Shown here one piece after another: positions 110 to 18,314 of a stretch of 22,576 bases of DNA (positions are counted from its first letter, which is position 1; each line of letters begins with the position of its first letter). A program made the position numbers and the translations under genes. The stretch spans positions 1-22,576 of the IMG/VR virus record IMGVR_UViG_3300028374_000068. The stretch is one strand, 5' to 3'. The DNA is from a virus. The notes beneath the pieces are model-generated. The model saw only the letters and a program-made list of their open reading frames with translations. It did not search any database and was not told the DNA's origin.

Positions 110-1162
110 CTATATCATTTCTTTTTTAAACTTCAACCTTGGGTATTTAGTTTTACAATACTCTAATACCTTATCACCATATTCTTCTTTAACTATTAAA
201 CTATCATGGACTGTCAATCCGAAATCAGTAGGACAATTTTCTAATAAATCATCTATCCATATTTTAGATTCTCTATGTTGTAACATCTTACAGAAATCTT
301 TATAGTCATCTTTCTTATAACTTTTAATAATCGTTGTTATAATAGGGAATAGTTTATTCATCATTCTTATATCATCACCATCCTTTCCTTCCTTTGAATA
401 CCCCTTTCCATTTATCCATTCTAAAAATAACATCTTACCCATATCTCTTGTTGTTATATTATAAATATTATCCATTAAATATTCATAAAAATCCACATCA
501 TTTTCAAATATATTATAAAATTTCTCATCATATACCCCCATCTCCTCTAACCATAACCATACGAGTCGAGGTTGAGAGGTTACCCCATCAATGGTATAGT
601 ATCCTTTACAATAATCCTTATACGAGTTTATATCAGTCGTATCATCATCAGTCTTTAATCCTAATGTTCCTGTTACATTGGTATGTAATCGTCTTGAAAA
701 GTTATCTCTACCTATCCTTGGTTTCAATCCTAACTCTATTAAACTCTTCTTTGTTAAGTTATACCACCTATTACCCTTATAAATATCATCAACGTCTATA
801 TCCACCTCTACGCTCTTCCCTTCGGTAGTATCGATAAGAAACTTATACTTCATACATTGACCTCTATCAGCGTTATATTTCTTTTTCTCTTTCTTTTTAT
901 CATCAAATATAGTCTCAAATGAAAACTCTACTGTCTTCTTATAATCAATAACTCCATATTCAATTAGAGTATCAATAGCCTTTGAATATCTACTACTAAC
1001 TTTCTTTAAGTAATTAGAGGGAACATCAAAATAACCTTTCGTTACTCCTTTCTTATAAACCAAAGCGTTATATACTTTCATTAATCTACTCTTTACTCTT
1101 TTATCTTTTAATTCAGTACATATGAAATCTACTTCTTTTGGTATTATTATTTCTTTTATCAT
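110..1162 (-). CDS. Compact Pol A/T7-RNAP-fold polymerase-like protein with N-terminal wHTH-like region
   Basis: 350 aa. Residues about 12-75 resemble a winged-helix domain. The rest carries an ordered set of motifs of the family A DNA polymerase / single-subunit RNA polymerase palm. Motif A is D192-G-x-x-S196-Q197. Motif B is R239-x3-K243-x7-N251-G252, the spacing of R-x3-K-x7-Y-G in Klenow and T7 RNAP. A Q295-x2-E298 helix sits where Klenow has its PMQGTAADI helix, and motif C is V-H319-D320-S321. The A-to-C distance is 128 residues, against about 177 in Klenow and 275 in T7 RNAP, and no exonuclease domain is visible. DG..S and HDS are closer to RNA polymerases, while the Q..E helix is closer to Pol A. 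It is likely a replication or priming polymerase; activity is inferred. It lies 18 nt after the 47-aa ORF, probably in one transcript, with an A-rich leader. Confidence 0.6.
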   Translation of the reverse strand: MIKEIIIPKEVDFICTELKDKRVKSRLMKVYNALVYKKGVTKGYFDVPSNYLKKVSSRYSKAIDTLIEYGVIDYKKTVEFSFETIFDDKKKEKKKYNADRGQCMKYKFLIDTTEGKSVEVDIDVDDIYKGNRWYNLTKKSLIELGLKPRIGRDNFSRRLHTNVTGTLGLKTDDDTTDINSYKDYCKGYYTIDGVTSQPRLVWLWLEEMGVYDEKFYNIFENDVDFYEYLMDNIYNITTRDMGKMLFLEWINGKGYSKEGKDGDDIRMMNKLFPIITTIIKSYKKDDYKDFCKMLQHRESKIWIDDLLENCPTDFGLTVHDSLIVKEEYGDKVLEYCKTKYPRLKFKKEMI

Positions 1163-1490: not shown

Positions 1491-1515
1491 TTATTATTAT
1501 TATTATTATTATTAA
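1491..1515. repeat. TTA trinucleotide microsatellite
   Basis: About eight TTA units in a row, followed closely by a TA dinucleotide run to about 1534. Such tracts change length by slippage. It lies between divergent genes and could alter promoter spacing or unwinding. Confidence 0.8.
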
Positions 1516-1656
1516 TATAATATATATATATATATCATTATCTCTCGCTCGCTTCTCCAAATTATCACAATAACCACCACTAATAAATAACTAAAAATAA
1601 ACCCTAAAATACCAAAAACTATAACTAAATATTTATATATAACTATAGAAAGAAAG

Positions 1657-2328: not shown

Positions 2329-3114
2329 ATGATAATAGATTTAAAATTTGGAGATTGTTTGGAACTTATGAAGGTAATACCAAACGGAAGTATAGATGCA
2401 ATTATAACAGACCCACCTTATGGCACAACAGCTTGTAAATGGGATAATGTAATTGACTTTGAATTAATGTGGTATCAGCTTAATAGAATTATAAAACCTA
2501 ATGGTGCTATTGTTTTATTTGGAAGTGAACCTTTTAGTAGTGCTTTGCGAATGAGTAATATTAAAAATTACAGATATGATTGGATTTGGAATAAAAGAAA
2601 GGCAGCGAACTTTGCTCAGTCAAAATTTCAACCATTAAAAGTTCATGAAATAATTAGTGTATTTTACAATAAAAAGAGTTGTTATTACCCTATAAAAACA
2701 ATAAACCCTAAAAAAAGAAGTGAAAACCCAAAGAAAACTAAAATAAACAAAGATAGAAGATTGTCTGGGTTAAATCTATTAGATAATTCATATAGTAATA
2801 GTTATGAAAAAGATAAGTTATTACCAATATCTATATGTGATTTTTCAAGAGTTAGCGGAAGATATATACACCCAACACAAAAACCTATTGAATTAATGGA
2901 ATACCTAATCAAAACCTACACAAACGAAAATGAAACGGTTTTAGACTTTACAATGGGAAGCGGAACAACGGGAGTGGCTTGTATAAACACAAACAGAAAC
3001 TTTATTGGAATTGAGAACAACAAAGAGTATTTTAATATTTCTTTAAAGAGGGTGGAAGAAAAAAGAAAAGAAAAAGATTTTACAGTAGTAACTTCATTCG
3101 GAGATGAAATGTAG
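2329..3114 (+). CDS. Site-specific DNA methyltransferase, beta class (N6-adenine or N4-cytosine)
   Basis: 261 aa. The catalytic motif IV DPPY (28-31) in the context TDPPYGTTACKWD comes first. The SAM-binding motif I FTMGSGTTG (207-215) is near the C-terminus, preceded by HPTQKP (181-186) and followed by FIGIEN (225-230). This IV-before-I order defines the beta class (DNA_methylase N4/N6 family). It would transfer a methyl group from SAM to adenine N6 or cytosine N4; the target site cannot be read from sequence. No restriction gene is adjacent, so this is an orphan phage enzyme, probably protecting phage DNA from host restriction. The length is normal and all core motifs are intact. Confidence 0.92.
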   Translation: MIIDLKFGDCLELMKVIPNGSIDAIITDPPYGTTACKWDNVIDFELMWYQLNRIIKPNGAIVLFGSEPFSSALRMSNIKNYRYDWIWNKRKAANFAQSKFQPLKVHEIISVFYNKKSCYYPIKTINPKKRSENPKKTKINKDRRLSGLNLLDNSYSNSYEKDKLLPISICDFSRVSGRYIHPTQKPIELMEYLIKTYTNENETVLDFTMGSGTTGVACINTNRNFIGIENNKEYFNISLKRVEEKRKEKDFTVVTSFGDEM

Positions 3115-7727: not shown

Positions 7728-8819
7728 TTATTTTATTTTTATTCTTGTTAGTGCATTTAAAGACTGTGACTTTGTTAATTTAGTCTCAACATCTTCTTCT
7801 TCATCTTCACTATTATTCAAATCTGATATCATAGATTTAATTGAAGCAATTTCTTCATATATTGTTTCAAAGTTCTTTTCAATATCAGTGTGTTCCTCTT
7901 CAGATGGGTCAGCAATTTCACCTTCTTCATCTTCATCTTCATCTTCATCTTCATCTTCAATAGCTTCAACTTTTTCGTCTTCAACTACCTCATCTTCTTC
8001 TTCATCTTCAATAGCTTCGACCTTTTCATCTTCAACTACCTCATCTTCTTCTTCATCTTCAATAGCTTCAACTTTTTCGTCTTCAACTACCTCATCTTCT
8101 TCTTCGACTGCTTCAACTTCCTTATCCTTTTTAAGTTCTGTTATAAGGTTCTTCATAGTCTCCAATTCTGTTTTTAGAGTTTCTATCTCATCTTTCATAT
8201 TATCTTTTTTATTTTTTATTTTCTGATATACATCAGAAGTAAGCTCAACTAATTTCATATTCAAAAAAGCCTCTATACTATAAGCATTCTTATTATTATC
8301 TTTTATATCTTTCCAGTATTCATTATCAACTACTTGACTATGAACCATCCAAGTCCCAAGAGGTATATCTTCTGATGAAAATCCATATTCCGTATATGTT
8401 TTATCATCTTCACTCTCTATAATCCACTCTTCTAAAATGAAAGCTTTAGCAGTCTCACCTTTATGAGTATCTTTAAAGATATTTAAATCATCTAATTTAC
8501 CATCTTGTTTAGCTTTAAGTCTGATATCTTTAATAACCTCACTTTTAGCTCGTATATAAAACTCACCTATCTCCTTATTCCTCCGATAAATTAAAATATC
8601 CGGAATTAAAAGTGGTGATAAAACTTGTTGTTTCTCTGTTAATTGTAAAGAAAGTTTATATAATGATTCTTGTGTTTCTTTAGAAAGTAATATACCTTTC
8701 TGTTCTATTGCCGGTTCATCAACATAAGCTATTTTATCAAAACCAGTAGAATCCTTCATACCCTCTTCAAACCCAAATAACTCTAAATCTAATATAGGTA
8801 ACCTATTATCTATCTCCAT
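7728..8819 (-). CDS. XkdF-like prohead protease fused to acidic scaffold
   Basis: 363 aa. Residues about 25-195 match the XkdF-type phage serine protease: GFDKIAYVDEPAIEQKG near the start, THKGETAKAFILEEWIIE around His119, GTWMVHSQV, and YSIEAFLNMKL around Ser181. His119 and Ser181 are the likely catalytic pair; this is inferred from the fold. A coiled coil (about 196-232) and a very acidic tail follow, with three 17-aa repeats (EDEVVEDEKVEAIEDEE) and an Asp-Glu run, then a basic C-terminus (TRIKIK). The tail is scaffold-like and the short basic end could bind the capsid shell. It lies directly upstream of the capsid gene. The start at 8819 touches promoter copy 3; LPILDLEL near the N-terminus fits the family, so this start is preferred. 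Confidence 0.8.
   Translation of the reverse strand: MEIDNRLPILDLELFGFEEGMKDSTGFDKIAYVDEPAIEQKGILLSKETQESLYKLSLQLTEKQQVLSPLLIPDILIYRRNKEIGEFYIRAKSEVIKDIRLKAKQDGKLDDLNIFKDTHKGETAKAFILEEWIIESEDDKTYTEYGFSSEDIPLGTWMVHSQVVDNEYWKDIKDNNKNAYSIEAFLNMKLVELTSDVYQKIKNKKDNMKDEIETLKTELETMKNLITELKKDKEVEAVEEEDEVVEDEKVEAIEDEEEDEVVEDEKVEAIEDEEEDEVVEDEKVEAIEDEDEDEDEDEEGEIADPSEEEHTDIEKNFETIYEEIASIKSMISDLNNSEDEEEDVETKLTKSQSLNALTRIKIK
7961..8113 (-). repeat. Three 51-bp tandem repeats in the scaffold tail
   Basis: Units start at 7961, 8012 and 8063 at an exact 51-bp spacing and encode the 17-aa acidic repeat. The middle unit differs from the first by three silent-type changes; the last is identical to the first for most of its length and then diverges. 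Recent expansion by slippage or recombination is likely. Confidence 0.85.
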
Positions 8820-8888: not shown

Positions 8889-9258
8889 TTATACCACTAT
8901 CTTAATTTTTTTTGGGTTAAATGGTGGAGTTGGTTTAATTAAATATTGTATCCCTCCAAAGTTATTAAGGTAATCTACCCATTCTATTATCTTATCTATA
9001 TCATATATGGATTTCTTAAAAAATATATAAGCACTATATTTAAAAGTTAATATATCCTCATAAGAAACGAACCTTTGGTGTCCACTACTTTTCAACACCC
9101 AATAATCATTATAGTTAAATTTTTTTAAATGACTTTCTAATGTTTTATTACATTTCCTAGCATATCCTAATTTAAAATAATCTCCACCTACTGGTCTCCT
9201 ATTTTCTATATGATTAGTTCTCAAACTCATACTTATCTCCCCTCTCTTCTTTTTCTAA
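8886..9258 (-). repeat. Tandem duplication, distal unit
   Basis: This 373-bp unit is a near copy of 9259-9632. It carries the 113-aa gene and the final bases of the methyltransferase gene as leader. The units join at a 2-base CA microhomology (9259-9260). Confidence 0.85.
8889..9230 (-). CDS. Unknown 113-aa protein, copy A
   Basis: 113 aa, basic, with segments GGDYFKLGYARKCNKT, HQRFVSYEDILTFKYS and IDKIIEWVDYLNNFGGIQYL. No family recognised. It is 105/113 identical to copy B (changes at positions 9, 11, 13, 48, 50, 60, 67 and 98). The leader is a duplicated piece of the methyltransferase 3' end, still containing the original initiation context. Both copies remain open and most changes are conservative, so both are probably made. 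Their link to the methyltransferase suggests a DNA-related or host-interaction role, but nothing in the sequence proves it. Confidence 0.7.
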   Translation of the reverse strand: MSLRTNHIENRRPVGGDYFKLGYARKCNKTLESHLKKFNYNDYWVLKSSGHQRFVSYEDILTFKYSAYIFFKKSIYDIDKIIEWVDYLNNFGGIQYLIKPTPPFNPKKIKIVV

Positions 9259-9632
9259 CATTTATACCACTATCTTAATTTTTTTTGGGTTAAATGGTGG
9301 AGTTGGTTTATTTAAATATTGTATCCCTCCAAAGTTATTAAGGTAATCTACCCATTCTATTATCTTATCTATATCATATATGGATTTCTTAAAAAATATA
9401 TAAACACTATATTTAAAAGTTAACATATCCTCATAAGAAACGAACCTTTGGTGTCTACTACCTTTCAACACCCAATAATCATTATAGTTAAATTTTTTTA
9501 AATGACTTTCTAATGTTTTATTACATTTCCTAGCATATCCTAATTTAAAATAATCTCCACCTACTAGGCGAAAATTTACTATATGATTAGTTCTCAAACT
9601 CATACTTATCTCCCTCTCTTCTTTTTCTAACA
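9259..9632 (-). repeat. Tandem duplication, proximal unit
   Basis: Parental-looking unit: copy B plus the last about 45 bp of the methyltransferase gene, which is whole here. It differs from the distal unit by scattered substitutions and one missing C (compare 9241). Confidence 0.85.
9262..9603 (-). CDS. Unknown 113-aa protein, copy B
   Basis: 113 aa, the paralogue of copy A. Its ATG overlaps the end of the methyltransferase gene by 17 nt, the original arrangement, so coupled translation is likely. The C-terminal residues IVV and the stop codon come from a 16-nt stretch (9259-9274) that also occurs inside the chaperone-like gene (10335-10350) in another frame, suggesting that the gene end was made by recombination. 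Function unknown. Confidence 0.72.
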   Translation of the reverse strand: MSLRTNHIVNFRLVGGDYFKLGYARKCNKTLESHLKKFNYNDYWVLKGSRHQRFVSYEDMLTFKYSVYIFFKKSIYDIDKIIEWVDYLNNFGGIQYLNKPTPPFNPKKIKIVV

Positions 9633-13829: not shown

Positions 13830-16800
13830 TTATGTTTTATTTACTATCGTATCTGAAATTGTGCCCGATAATGAAGCTCCATCGATATAACCATTATTAT
13901 TATTACTTATAACAGAAGTAACCGAGGCGGAACAGTTGTTGATATATCCAGCATTCGAATTTCTTAAAATAACACCGTTATTATTATTATCTTTAATATC
14001 ACCGTTATTTACATTAGAAATAATATTACCATTGTTTAAATTTGAACTAATATTACCATTGTTTGAATTACTATTAATATTTGTTACATTTTCTGTATTA
14101 TTTCCAATATAATCAAGATTTGAATTTAAATTTATATCACCAGCGTTTTCATTATCATTTATATCACCAGCGTTCGAATTTGATTCTATATCACCAGCGT
14201 TCGAATTTGAATCAATGTCACCAGCGTTCGAATTACCTATAATGTTTATATTTGAGTTATTCTGTATATGGCTGGTATTTGAATTACTAGATATAGTCCC
14301 AATGTTGGAGTTTTGAATTATTCTCCCATTGTTGGAGTTTTGAATTATTCTCCCATCGTTCGAATTTGAATTAATCTCTCCACTGTTTGAATTACTTTCT
14401 ATAACACTAGTATTTGAATTGTTATTAATCTCTCCACTGTTTGAATTTGAATTAATAGATGAATCATTCGCGTTACTCTGAATATCTCCAAGATTCGAGT
14501 TACTAGATATATCATTAGTATTTAAATTATTCAAAATAATACCAAGATTTGAATTATTCTGAATAATACCAAGATTTGAATTATTCTGAATATACCCATT
14601 ATTTGAATTATTATAAATAGAACCATCATTTGAATTATTATGAATATACCCATCATTTGAATTATTATAAATAGAACCATCATTTGAATTATTATAAATA
14701 ATACCACTATTATCATTATTATAAATAGAACCAAGATTTGAATTATCATAAATAGAACCAAGATTTGAATTATCATAAATAGAACCACTATTTAAATTAT
14801 TATAAATAGAACCAGTATTTGAATTATTATTAATACTACCATTATTTGAATTATTATAAATAGAACCAAGATTTGAATTACTAGAAATATTACCACCGTA
14901 ATTATTATAAATACCATAACATTTATTTCTGTAAATCTTATCATCATTCCAATCAGTTATGTCCAACATATTAAGATATGTACTCACATCTGTTAATGTT
15001 TCAACTCCAATTAAATCATTACCCTTTAAATCCCTTTGATTAGATACAAAATCATCATCAAAATCATATCCAATTGAAAAATAACAATCTTCATATCTAC
15101 CATCAGTATCATTAACTAAATCCCAACCTGTACCATCTATAATATCTTGAACAGTTGTTCCACCGTCAGCACCAGTTGTGTCTCTTTTCCATAATTTACC
15201 ACCCCAAATAACATAATAAATATCACCACCTATAAAATCATCTGAATTTGGAACGGAACCTTGTGCAGTTGTCTGTCCATATATACCAAGATATACACTA
15301 TCGAAAAATCCAGTAATTGTTTGTGGTGTATAGTAAGTTGTTAAAGGACACCTCATCATCCTAGCAGCACCTGTAGCCAAGTTATCTGTAGCCAACGCTC
15401 TTGTCCATATATCTCTATCTGTGATATGATATGTTGAACCTGTGTCCAAATCAGCATTTGATTTTAAAGTAACTAAATCAGCATATAATATTTCAGTGAA
15501 TTTTTCATTATTTACTATATTCGTAACGTTTGTGAAATCTAAAGTAGTAGTATTAAAATCTAAAGTATTTGCTTGTATATCTATATTACCATCATTACTC
15601 GCATCGAAAGTTATACCAGCATCGAACGACTCAGTATATCCATCAGCAACATAATTATCAGCAACAAATTCTGATTGATAAGTCATACCTACCTTGGTGA
15701 AATCAACTTCACCTATATTAACCTTTTCTCCTAAATTAACATCTCCTATAAGTGCATTATATTCTTCTGATGCAATCTTATTTGTACCAACAACCAACTT
15801 ATTATCTAAACCACCATCTGATGATTTATTACCAATAATCATTGACGAACCATTTATCGTATTATTATCACCAATTATATTCCCTTTACTATTAGATTGA
15901 GCTGTATTATTTTTACCTTTAAAATCAACATCTGACCCAACAACGATTGTGTTATTAGTAATCATCCTTGTCTCTTTACCTTTTACCCAAGGAGAAACTA
16001 CCCAAGGGTTAGAAGGATTTGGTTTAGTCGGAGGATGTACAATTCTATTGACATCAATACTTAAACCATCATCGACTGTCACTAATTCAACTTTTGTTAA
16101 AGAGTTGCTATTTGCATCATAATCAACTATTTTATTAACATTATACCAGGAGTCATTGATGAATATTCTATCATTATATTTAAAGTTTAATATATCTATA
16201 CTATCTAATTGAAAAAATGCTGTTACTAATTTACCTTTATATAATTGACTTAAACTTCTTCTATGATATAAAGTCCATAAATTATTTTGAGTTATATTCT
16301 CATATTCATTATGAAAGTAAAATTCACAATTACCAAAGTTCAAATCAAATCCTGGATTTACGGGATTATCTTGGTGAGTAATAAGTGGATAAACTCCTTC
16401 CTCAACAGTTGAATAACTACCATCATTTTGCTCAATAAAATAATAACCATCTTTTGTTCCACCATCATATAATAGTCTAATATTATATTCCTCATCTGGC
16501 TTCAAAGCTGGTGTGAACATATCATTACTTTCTCCGTGAAGTGTTGGAGTTGGACTAAAAGTTAATTCAACTTTATCTTCTCCTACATTATATTCATTCA
16601 AATAATCAAAATCATATTCACCATATACATCTCCAATTGCATCAGAATACTGGGTGTTATAAGAATCTTTATCTTTTTTATATGTATATTTCTTCGTCTT
16701 TCCTTGACTTGTAACTAGCCATTGTTGATTAATCTTCTTATTCTTAGCTAATTTTTTAGTCCAATCCTTTTGTTCTCCATCATCATAATATTTATCTCTA

Positions 16801-18314
16801 GTAGTATAGATTAATTTATTGGGTTGTATAGGGTCAATTTCAACTATCAACTTATACATATCAATTACAGACTTAACTATATCTCTTTGTTTAACACCCT
16901 TTGGTATAAATTTATTTAAATGAACTGGTGTTCCAATATCATATTCTAAATCTGGTATAACCGTCATATAAATACTATTGATATTTAAAATAGAACCAAT
17001 ATTCGCCTTAGGTTGATTTCCGTTACTTAACTGATATCTCCATCCGAGTGTTACATTTTCATCATATGGGTTTTGATATGTTTCTGAAATCATAAAATCA
17101 GTCACTTGCTCAGAAACTCCCAATGGAATCGTAAAACTACAATTAGCAATGCCACTATTAATTGAATTATTACCTGGTTGTAATGCATCTTCAGGATTGT
17201 TAAAGTCTGGATTATCTCTTTCTCTAAAATCATTTGATGCTCCATCTAAAGCTTTCCATCCAAATGTTGAATTACCAAGATAATCAATTATTCTATATCT
17301 TAATTCATATCTAATTCTTAATTTATTTAAAACATCACTTCCGACACCTAAAGATTGTATATAAGCTGACGAACTTTCTAAATTATTTAAGAAATGGTCA
17401 AAATCAATCTGGAAGTTAAATGTATATTCTGAATTAACTGCCGCAGTAAATGAATCAGTTGATAAATTAAATTGATTAAATTCATCTTTTGTTTCAATTG
17501 TGAAATTTTCTACACTATCAAATCGTGTGTTAATCCCACCTGGTAAATATTCTTGCCTAAATCCATAATCTTGTTGATGAAAAGTCCCATCCTCAACTAT
17601 AACTTCATAAGTATCTTTCGTCTCCTGTTCAACTTCAAATCCTCCCGTGTATGGAATTAATAATTTATCAATATGTAAATCTTCTAACTCATCAAATTGA
17701 TATTCAAATCCACTTTCTTTGTGAATCGCATCCCAATATGTTTTAAGATATGTAGCTGGCTTGAAGTATTTAACTGCATAATTTGGACTACCACCATTAT
17801 CATAAGGTATGAATTTATATTTATCAGTAACATCATTATTAAAAGTTGCTAATATACTATTCCTGAACAGCAAAGTATATGTTGATGGGTCATAGATATT
17901 TAAATCTGTTAAATCTTTATTTTTAATTGTAGTAAAAAAACTCATTAAATCAGATTTTACTCTACCTGTATATTTAATTTCAGACTCACCATTTGGTAAC
18001 TCACTACCTGTTTTCTCTACATTTATTAATTGAAAGAATCCATTCTCAAAAACATTACTACCATTTTGAATTACATTACAACTAACTTTCTTATTTATAT
18101 CAAATGATGAATTACTTATATTCACATCAAAAGCTTGACCTAATAATATATTAGCATCATTATCACCTATTATAATTATATCTTTTGAATATGCTGATGG
18201 TGTTGAATCTGGTTCTTTTAAATTCTGTATATTGAAATTTAAAGGAAAACTACTTCCCTCCTTAATTGTTAATTTACCAAAACCTTCTAACTGTATCTGT
18301 GTATTATTTCCCAT
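13830..18314 (-). CDS. Giant tail-tip/baseplate protein with Asn-rich repeat adhesin
   Basis: 1494 aa. Residues 1 to about 760 look like the tail-tip/baseplate protein of Bacteroidetes phages (beta-rich, GFGKLTIKEGSSFPLNFNIQ at the start). About 785-865 holds a YadA/Hia-head-like run (NTIVVGS, GNIIGDNNTING, SMIIGN), suggesting a trimeric beta-roll. About 935-1130 holds a YADLVTLKS...GSTYHITDRD module common in phage fibres. About 1140-1486 is a run of some 38 nonapeptides (x-N-N/S-S-N-x-G-x-I), then a short cap. It probably links the tail tip to host receptors. The start overlaps the preceding stop as TAATG. The fusion of a hub-like part and a repeat adhesin in one chain is unusual. Confidence 0.75.
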   Translation of the reverse strand: MGNNTQIQLEGFGKLTIKEGSSFPLNFNIQNLKEPDSTPSAYSKDIIIIGDNDANILLGQAFDVNISNSSFDINKKVSCNVIQNGSNVFENGFFQLINVEKTGSELPNGESEIKYTGRVKSDLMSFFTTIKNKDLTDLNIYDPSTYTLLFRNSILATFNNDVTDKYKFIPYDNGGSPNYAVKYFKPATYLKTYWDAIHKESGFEYQFDELEDLHIDKLLIPYTGGFEVEQETKDTYEVIVEDGTFHQQDYGFRQEYLPGGINTRFDSVENFTIETKDEFNQFNLSTDSFTAAVNSEYTFNFQIDFDHFLNNLESSSAYIQSLGVGSDVLNKLRIRYELRYRIIDYLGNSTFGWKALDGASNDFRERDNPDFNNPEDALQPGNNSINSGIANCSFTIPLGVSEQVTDFMISETYQNPYDENVTLGWRYQLSNGNQPKANIGSILNINSIYMTVIPDLEYDIGTPVHLNKFIPKGVKQRDIVKSVIDMYKLIVEIDPIQPNKLIYTTRDKYYDDGEQKDWTKKLAKNKKINQQWLVTSQGKTKKYTYKKDKDSYNTQYSDAIGDVYGEYDFDYLNEYNVGEDKVELTFSPTPTLHGESNDMFTPALKPDEEYNIRLLYDGGTKDGYYFIEQNDGSYSTVEEGVYPLITHQDNPVNPGFDLNFGNCEFYFHNEYENITQNNLWTLYHRRSLSQLYKGKLVTAFFQLDSIDILNFKYNDRIFINDSWYNVNKIVDYDANSNSLTKVELVTVDDGLSIDVNRIVHPPTKPNPSNPWVVSPWVKGKETRMITNNTIVVGSDVDFKGKNNTAQSNSKGNIIGDNNTINGSSMIIGNKSSDGGLDNKLVVGTNKIASEEYNALIGDVNLGEKVNIGEVDFTKVGMTYQSEFVADNYVADGYTESFDAGITFDASNDGNIDIQANTLDFNTTTLDFTNVTNIVNNEKFTEILYADLVTLKSNADLDTGSTYHITDRDIWTRALATDNLATGAARMMRCPLTTYYTPQTITGFFDSVYLGIYGQTTAQGSVPNSDDFIGGDIYYVIWGGKLWKRDTTGADGGTTVQDIIDGTGWDLVNDTDGRYEDCYFSIGYDFDDDFVSNQRDLKGNDLIGVETLTDVSTYLNMLDITDWNDDKIYRNKCYGIYNNYGGNISSNSNLGSIYNNSNNGSINNNSNTGSIYNNLNSGSIYDNSNLGSIYDNSNLGSIYNNDNSGIIYNNSNDGSIYNNSNDGYIHNNSNDGSIYNNSNNGYIQNNSNLGIIQNNSNLGIILNNLNTNDISSNSNLGDIQSNANDSSINSNSNSGEINNNSNTSVIESNSNSGEINSNSNDGRIIQNSNNGRIIQNSNIGTISSNSNTSHIQNNSNINIIGNSNAGDIDSNSNAGDIESNSNAGDINDNENAGDINLNSNLDYIGNNTENVTNINSNSNNGNISSNLNNGNIISNVNNGDIKDNNNNGVILRNSNAGYINNCSASVTSVISNNNNGYIDGASLSGTISDTIVNKT
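13857..14896 (-). repeat. About 38 degenerate 27-bp tandem repeats encoding nonapeptides
   Basis: Period 27 bp (9 aa). Neighbouring units at about 14600-14880 are nearly identical, while those at 13860-14300 are more divergent. A few units have 8, 10 or 11 residues, breaking the register near the C-terminal end. This is coding DNA, not a CRISPR array. Confidence 0.85.

Follow-up and report, generated by a model that had tools for sequence, protein, structure and literature searches.

The virus record analysed here over its full length (22,576 bases; hereafter the window) is a fragment of a tailed, Bacteroidota-type phage. It carries on its minus strand, at 110-1162, an intact reading frame for a 350-aa protein, predicted to be a thumbless family A-type polymerase with an N-terminal winged helix-turn-helix (wHTH). 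This polymerase looks like the only replication protein of a group of phages and of some small integrated elements. Since no other replication protein was seen, it probably starts the DNA copying of its carriers. The reading that we favour, to which we give a slightly better than even chance, is that the protein initiates replication by binding the origin and has priming or polymerising activity as well, before the host replisome takes over. The features of the gene and its upstream region are listed in Table 1.

Table 1. Features of the polymerase gene and its upstream region in the window
Feature	Position	Strand	Basis or remark
Whole polymerase gene, 350 aa	110..1162	minus	predicted thumbless family A-type polymerase with N-terminal wHTH
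Winged helix-turn-helix, residues 1-121, putative DNA binding	800..1162	minus	structure model
Predicted palm and fingers of family A polymerase, residues 127-350	113..784	minus	VIA match to apPol 5dkt
Motif A, D192-G-V-T-S196-Q197-P198-R199	566..589	minus	D, S, Q and P invariant in 27 sequences
Fingers/motif B region, D224-F-Y ... R239-x3-K243 ... N251-G-K-G254-Y255	398..493	minus	alignment and hhalign
Q-helix L294-Q295-x2-E298-S-K-I-W and motif C hairpin H319-D320-S321	188..283	minus	alignment and model
Second upstream block AAATAGGGTAGGGGGAAGAGG..TATATATA, like AAAAATGGGTAGAGGGAAGAG..TATATATA of L003	1381..1416	minus	by-eye comparison
AT-rich stretch beside the element, possible unwinding region	1494..1533	plus	sequence; same layout in relatives
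Diverged element copy ATCATTATCTCTCGCTCGCTT, pointing away from the polymerase gene	1534..1554	plus	pattern match and alignment

Predicted fold and conserved active-site residues

The AlphaFold2 model of the polymerase, built from 27 sequences, had a mean pLDDT of 81.8. It placed motif A on a strand (residues 189-193), R-x3-K on a helix (239-251), Q295 and E298 on another helix (290-307) and H-D within a hairpin (316-324), with a helix and a strand after it, which is the order of Pol A. VIA-align superposed residues 127-350 onto apPol 5dkt with Z 14.4 over 208 residues (rmsd 3.3 Å). All of the best 50 VIA rows (50/50) were family A DNA polymerases; that RNA polymerases are missing among these 50 rows is not evidence against them. 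In a Foldseek search against the PDB, ranks 1-15 were family A DNA polymerases, with a modest best E value of 1.8e-3 and probabilities of 0.95-1.0 for the best 12 matches, all of family A. The original prediction had expected structure prediction followed by Foldseek to reveal a Pol A-type palm, and such a palm was found; a fold without one, the outcome named as counting against it, did not occur. The two metal-binding aspartates and the RxxxK of the fingers that mark family A were all present, with D192, D320 and R239 invariant and K243 conserved in 26 of 27 sequences. In the model D192 and D320 would superpose on the metal ligands of Pol A. The assignment of residues 127-350 to the palm and fingers of a family A polymerase is well supported by these model comparisons.

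A canonical thumb appears to be lacking, because residues 80-150, predicted as strands and helices of 5 and 12 residues, contain no pair of long helices in the model. No exonuclease was seen in the polymerase model either. R158, a candidate for the Arg of a TV-Pol-type beta-hairpin, is invariant and lies in a part modelled with low confidence. When residues 1-125 were modelled alone, a winged helix was obtained (pLDDT 78.8), and its VIA matches (Z 5-6.2) comprised ORC winged helices, CodY, Fur and Rep/initiator domains. The model and its matches support the wHTH-like domain proposed earlier for the N-terminus. The wHTH is a common fold, and matches of a model to it say nothing on DNA specificity.

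All residue counts are based on the 27-sequence alignment. Invariant in 27/27 were R158, D192, S196, Q197, P198, D212, D224, Y226, R239, G254, Y255, E298, H319 and D320; near-invariant were, besides K243, Q295 (26/27) and N251 (24/27). Overall identity among relatives was 37-48%, and because these residues are invariant at such identity and the fold matches, the motif pattern is not due to chance. The motifs that had been read from the single sequence (D..S-Q, R-x3-K, Q..E and H-D) were conserved in that order in the 27 sequences. The two reported spacings were also correct, with 51 residues between D192 and K243 (A to B) and a shortened 77 between K243 and D320 (B to C); in relatives the first is mostly 48-50, with 55 in three, and the second mostly 70. 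The core of the proposed motif residues was thus conserved, whereas G193 was not, the S321 position is C, S or A among relatives, and G252 is variable next to the invariant G254-Y255.

The family signature in motif A is D-[ASG]-x-x-S-Q-P, in which D192 would be the metal Asp and Q197 would occupy the position of the steric-gate Glu. Residue 193 is A in 19 and S in 7 of the 27 sequences and G in the window protein only. The claim that 'DG..S' marks a single-subunit RNA polymerase fails here, because this residue is Ala or Ser in every relative. Of the two features by which single-subunit RNA polymerases would be recognised, D-G in motif A occurs in 1/27 sequences and the Tyr at the Y639 position is replaced by Asn251. 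Two of the invariant residues, D224 and R158, had not been on the earlier motif list. D224 (D-[FL]-Y) lies 14 residues ahead of R239 in most relatives, and this distance equals that from D-I-H to R518 in T7 DNA polymerase. In an hhalign comparison with T7 DNA polymerase, weak at E 0.11, the fingers blocks were in register and Q197 stood opposite the steric-gate E480.

Relatives and nearest described proteins

Searches of Pfam, PHROGs, NCBIfam and PDB sequences with the protein and with its family gave nothing significant, and the polymerase belongs to no curated family. By tblastn, the window protein had no match in phage records and a relative had none in plasmids. Profile comparisons with hhalign were not significant for T7 DNA polymerase and host PolA (E 0.11-0.2), divPolA2 (E 0.15) or T7 RNA polymerase (E 0.69), and hmmsearch did not separate Pol A from decoys. 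The link to Pol A is therefore not proven by sequence alone; the missing Pol A profile match lowers the case for close Pol I membership, not that for a shared fold. No description of this polymerase family was found in the literature covered, which lies outside most subscription journals.

Relatives were found in viral contigs (12 with the protein query alone, more with an alignment query) and in Bacteroidota genomes (seven, from Mucilaginibacter, Flavobacterium and uncultured Bacteroidetes). A draw of 395 genomes of this phylum yielded two further, more distant homologues (L053 and L054, 536-548 aa), which together with the plasmid-borne L056:2824-4398 carry motifs of the RLHT / NSQP / LQRxE / HDSI type. 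Another homologue family, of 397 aa and unannotated, was noticed in metagenomic phages of 595-735 kb (L031:1284-2474 and hits H8-H11). L053, L054, L031 and the Hymenobacter protein WP_187734701 resemble the window protein in R-x-H-T, D-x-x-N-SQP, LQR-x-E and HDSI-type motifs. Comparison of the window family with these Bacteroidota and megaphage homologues gave E 3e-10 and 1e-7 in hhalign and E 1.3e-12 to 1.2e-6 in hmmsearch. They differ from the window protein in their length (397-548 aa), in being unannotated and in having other N-termini. The Hymenobacter plasmid encodes a separate replication initiator, and its homologue was for this reason rejected as proof of a replication role. With the PHROG 4756 profile 2/11 members were matched (best E 0.0039), and the distant homologue L053 was matched with E 1.2e-5 and links the longer Bacteroidota homologues to this PHROG. 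Downstream of the intact gene, L024 contains a truncated second polymerase-like frame (L024:2032-2247; LQKKEAA...TIHDAL).

A structure search of BFVD returned phage proteins of ~400-435 residues as best matches, among them a barbavirus protein at rank 3 (E 1.5e-6) and a protein of Aeromonas phage 2L372X at rank 9 (E 1.2e-4); rank 17 was a virophage helicase-primase-polymerase. The barbavirus and 2L372X proteins appear to belong to divPolA2 (PHROG 4756), which is found in barbaviruses, ICP1-like and other phages (PMC11348598). Like the model of the window protein, divPolA2 combines a catalytic palm with a separate N-terminal globular domain and has no recognisable thumb and no exonuclease. In contrast, its representative is 430 aa long with F-D-E in motif C, as against 350 aa and H-D-S, and divPolA2 accompanies a regular DNA polymerase, whereas none was seen alongside the window polymerase. 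TV-Pol, a predicted primase-polymerase of mobile elements and viruses, consists of a minimal family A core (Iyer 2008, PMC2579912). It shares with the window protein the two Asp, the Asp and RxxxK of the fingers and the links to resolvases and integrases, but its thumb is made of two helices and a D5 helicase often goes with it; neither such a thumb nor such a helicase was seen here, where a wHTH occupies the N-terminus. Membership in TV-Pol was rejected, as the predicted structure has no thumb of two antiparallel helices and no D5 helicase was found. The nearest described proteins are thus far divPolA2 and TV-Pol, and judged by the model, divPolA2 is the structurally closest among named viral proteins. 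Because the thumb and helicase of TV-Pol were not seen and the sequence link to PHROG 4756 is weak, the protein would be a minimal Pol A variant outside both families.

By analogy, the nearest biochemical precedent is CCPol-MP of SCC elements, which makes DNA primers de novo with its partner and prefers an iteron-bearing origin (PMC7581432). CCPol-MP and the Pol-SSB pairs (PMC10061031) resemble the present case in having a family A palm on mobile elements. CCPol has a metal pair (D169/D324), and an Asp pair is likewise present in the window polymerase. At the sugar-selecting positions CCPol keeps E174 (E710) and F225 (F762), whereas the window family has Q197, Leu/Met247 and Asn251 in place of Glu, Phe and Tyr. 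CCPol further retains part of the exonuclease and thumb, neither of which was seen in the window polymerase, and works with MP and the helicase Cch2, whereas no conserved partner gene was found among the 16 records compared below.

Carriers, upstream element and proposed function

We compared 11 phage records (window included) and five host-integrated elements. The polymerase was the sole gene family present in 16/16 records, the next best reaching 11; all 16 had been chosen for having the polymerase, and the informative part of this count is that no other gene was shared by all. None of the Pfam families listed (25/28) for 124 accessory-region ORFs of seven phage records (28-38 kb) was that of a helicase, primase, further polymerase, SSB or initiator, and the same held for 62 ORFs including the integrated elements (25/26 families listed); most phage records are possibly incomplete. 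Listed were methylases, terminases, integrases, recombinases, HNH, restriction-type, sigma-like and HTH proteins, with no D5-like helicase among these Pfam families in either phages or small elements. In the prophage of Mucilaginibacter achroorhodeus MJ1a (G002, L025) an integrase and host genes lie on one side. Insertions of ~12 kb split comM (N-part ending FRSPHHTISD) in the Mucilaginibacter genomes L026 and L027; they contain the polymerase gene, a small resolvase and a large serine recombinase, and no virion genes. In Flavobacterium (L028, from Flavobacterium KMS, and L029) the polymerase gene lies near integrases. Adjoining it in Flavobacterium saliperosum, genes resembling those for Dnd phosphorothioation were recognised by eye (L029:12245-16081), and these may be defence cargo of the element that holds the polymerase gene.

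The region upstream of the gene has, in most relatives, an AT-rich run followed by ATCATTATTACTCTTATTCACTTTT, often with 1-2 more AAAAGTGARTAA sites. In 18/25 cases (one tie) the highest-scoring site of a leave-one-out weight matrix over the entire sequence lay upstream of the gene, at a distance of 52-213 bp, typically with 15-33 bits against a background of about 13 or less. The 12-mer occurred at 33 sites within 250 bp upstream in the relatives vs 2.2 expected, and at 1.32 sites per interval upstream of the polymerase gene vs 0.12 upstream of other ORFs. Direct pairs of sites exactly 19 bp apart occur in L009, L012, L017 and L027, with three sites each in the 250 bp before the gene in L017 and L027, and a 51-bp unit with the element in it forms a tandem array of 3.7 copies in L024. 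No element was found upstream of the polymerase gene in L020, L021 and L028. The element is directional, and most genomes have one to three copies; L012 also carries it in reversed orientation. Some copies lie far from the polymerase gene and are in part perfect (L010:18696, L009:13263, L012:1304 and 8600), and one in L025 lies upstream of another gene (+1722). Given these extra copies in L009, L010, L012 and L025, the element may also be a promoter or an operator.

The sole copy in the window has a two-base deletion. The leave-one-out matrix misses it, and it is recovered only by a gapped pattern and by alignment. The pattern, which was written with this site in view, had one match in the window and 0/100 in shuffles; alignment to the upstream region of L003 scored 52 vs a shuffle maximum of 42. 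The iteron-type arrangement of a wHTH protein and regularly spaced repeats by its gene was found in relatives, whereas the window has a diverged copy only.

A role as replication initiator or primase would fit both the gene content and the upstream repeats. The N-terminal wHTH might dock on the short repeat array next to its own gene, whereupon the AT-rich DNA beside the repeats would open. The palm, with its fingers and two metal-binding Asp and without thumb or exonuclease, would make a short primer or first strand there, and the host replisome would then take over. Hand-over is suggested because neither a helicase nor a clamp nor a second polymerase is seen in the phages. Computation shows the family conservation, the predicted fold, the gene content and the enrichment of repeats; that the protein binds DNA, makes primers, acts at an origin, passes its product to the host and uses dNTPs or NTPs is inferred. 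The lack of the element upstream of the gene in L020, L021 and L028 and the diverged, reversed copy in the window speak against an origin role. A possible, if doubtful, version of the proposal has one thumbless protein of ~325-350 residues act as initiator and partner-free primer maker in both phages and ~12 kb elements, with hand-over to the host. Priming by CCPol needs an SSB-like partner, and none was identified in the carriers of the window polymerase. As no other replication gene is in sight and the repeats lie beside the gene, the question of what such thumbless proteins do is open to test with a single protein and some hundreds of bases of DNA. Priming without a partner would make the protein a very small initiator-primase, useful as a model of how Pol A enzymes gained or lost de novo initiation.

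The role of thumbless Pol A-like phage proteins is undecided in the literature, with repair, RNA polymerase or other functions under consideration (PMC11348598). We regard it as unlikely that the window protein is a primer-dependent DNA polymerase extending host primers, with the wHTH holding the template and the repeats serving as autoregulatory operator. Without its partner CCPol does no more than extend primers, DNA binding is a common use of wHTH folds, and the element copy before another gene in L025 would suit an operator; yet something must start replication where no phage helicase or initiator is visible, and the 19-bp repeat pairs and the tandem array of L024 look like an origin. The small number of element copies per genome already argues against a small RNA polymerase of the single-subunit type using the element as a T7-like promoter for phage genes, a reading that we consider quite improbable. 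It would account for a motif C that reads H-D-S/C/A and not H-D-E, for the loss of the steric-gate Glu (Q197) and for a directional element with extra copies in some genomes, and the authors of the divPolA2 study left this option open (PMC11348598). Against it stand Asn251 as the Y639 equivalent, the lack of a domain for promoter recognition such as T7 RNA polymerase has, and the hhalign result for the latter. Moreover, an enzyme for transcribing virion genes would be useless in the ~12 kb comM elements because they hold no structural genes.

A repair or translesion polymerase accessory to replication, as suggested for divPolA2 beside its regular DNA polymerase (PMC11348598), would agree with the missing thumb and proofreading. 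We hold it to be very improbable, given that neither a regular DNA polymerase nor any other gene for replication was seen alongside and that the polymerase is the one gene kept in every compared record. For a palm that has lost catalysis and persists as a DNA-binding initiator or repressor, some polymerase-SSB pairs with a vestigial, possibly inactive core give a parallel (Rice 2023). We find this reading scarcely credible, since the invariant metal Asp, R158, R239, E298 and H319, with K243 and Q295 nearly so, argue for kept catalysis.

Other features of the window

The ORFs at 3.9-22.4 kb of the window belong to families common to other phage records of the polymerase-carrying group, and none of the Rfam RNA families was found within the window. 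An adenine-type methylase with a DPPYGT motif is encoded at 2329-3114. Two adjacent 113-aa genes on the minus strand (8889-9230 and 9262-9603), for which no function was found, are near-identical tandem duplicates with 105/113 residues equal. The 1494-aa tail-type protein encoded at 13830-18314 (minus strand) has Asn-rich short repeats (NNSNLGSIY-like) in its C-terminal third, which is probably a repeat fibre. A 363-aa protein encoded at 7728-8819 (minus strand) contains 3 near-identical acidic repeats (DEVVEDEKVEAIEDEEE).
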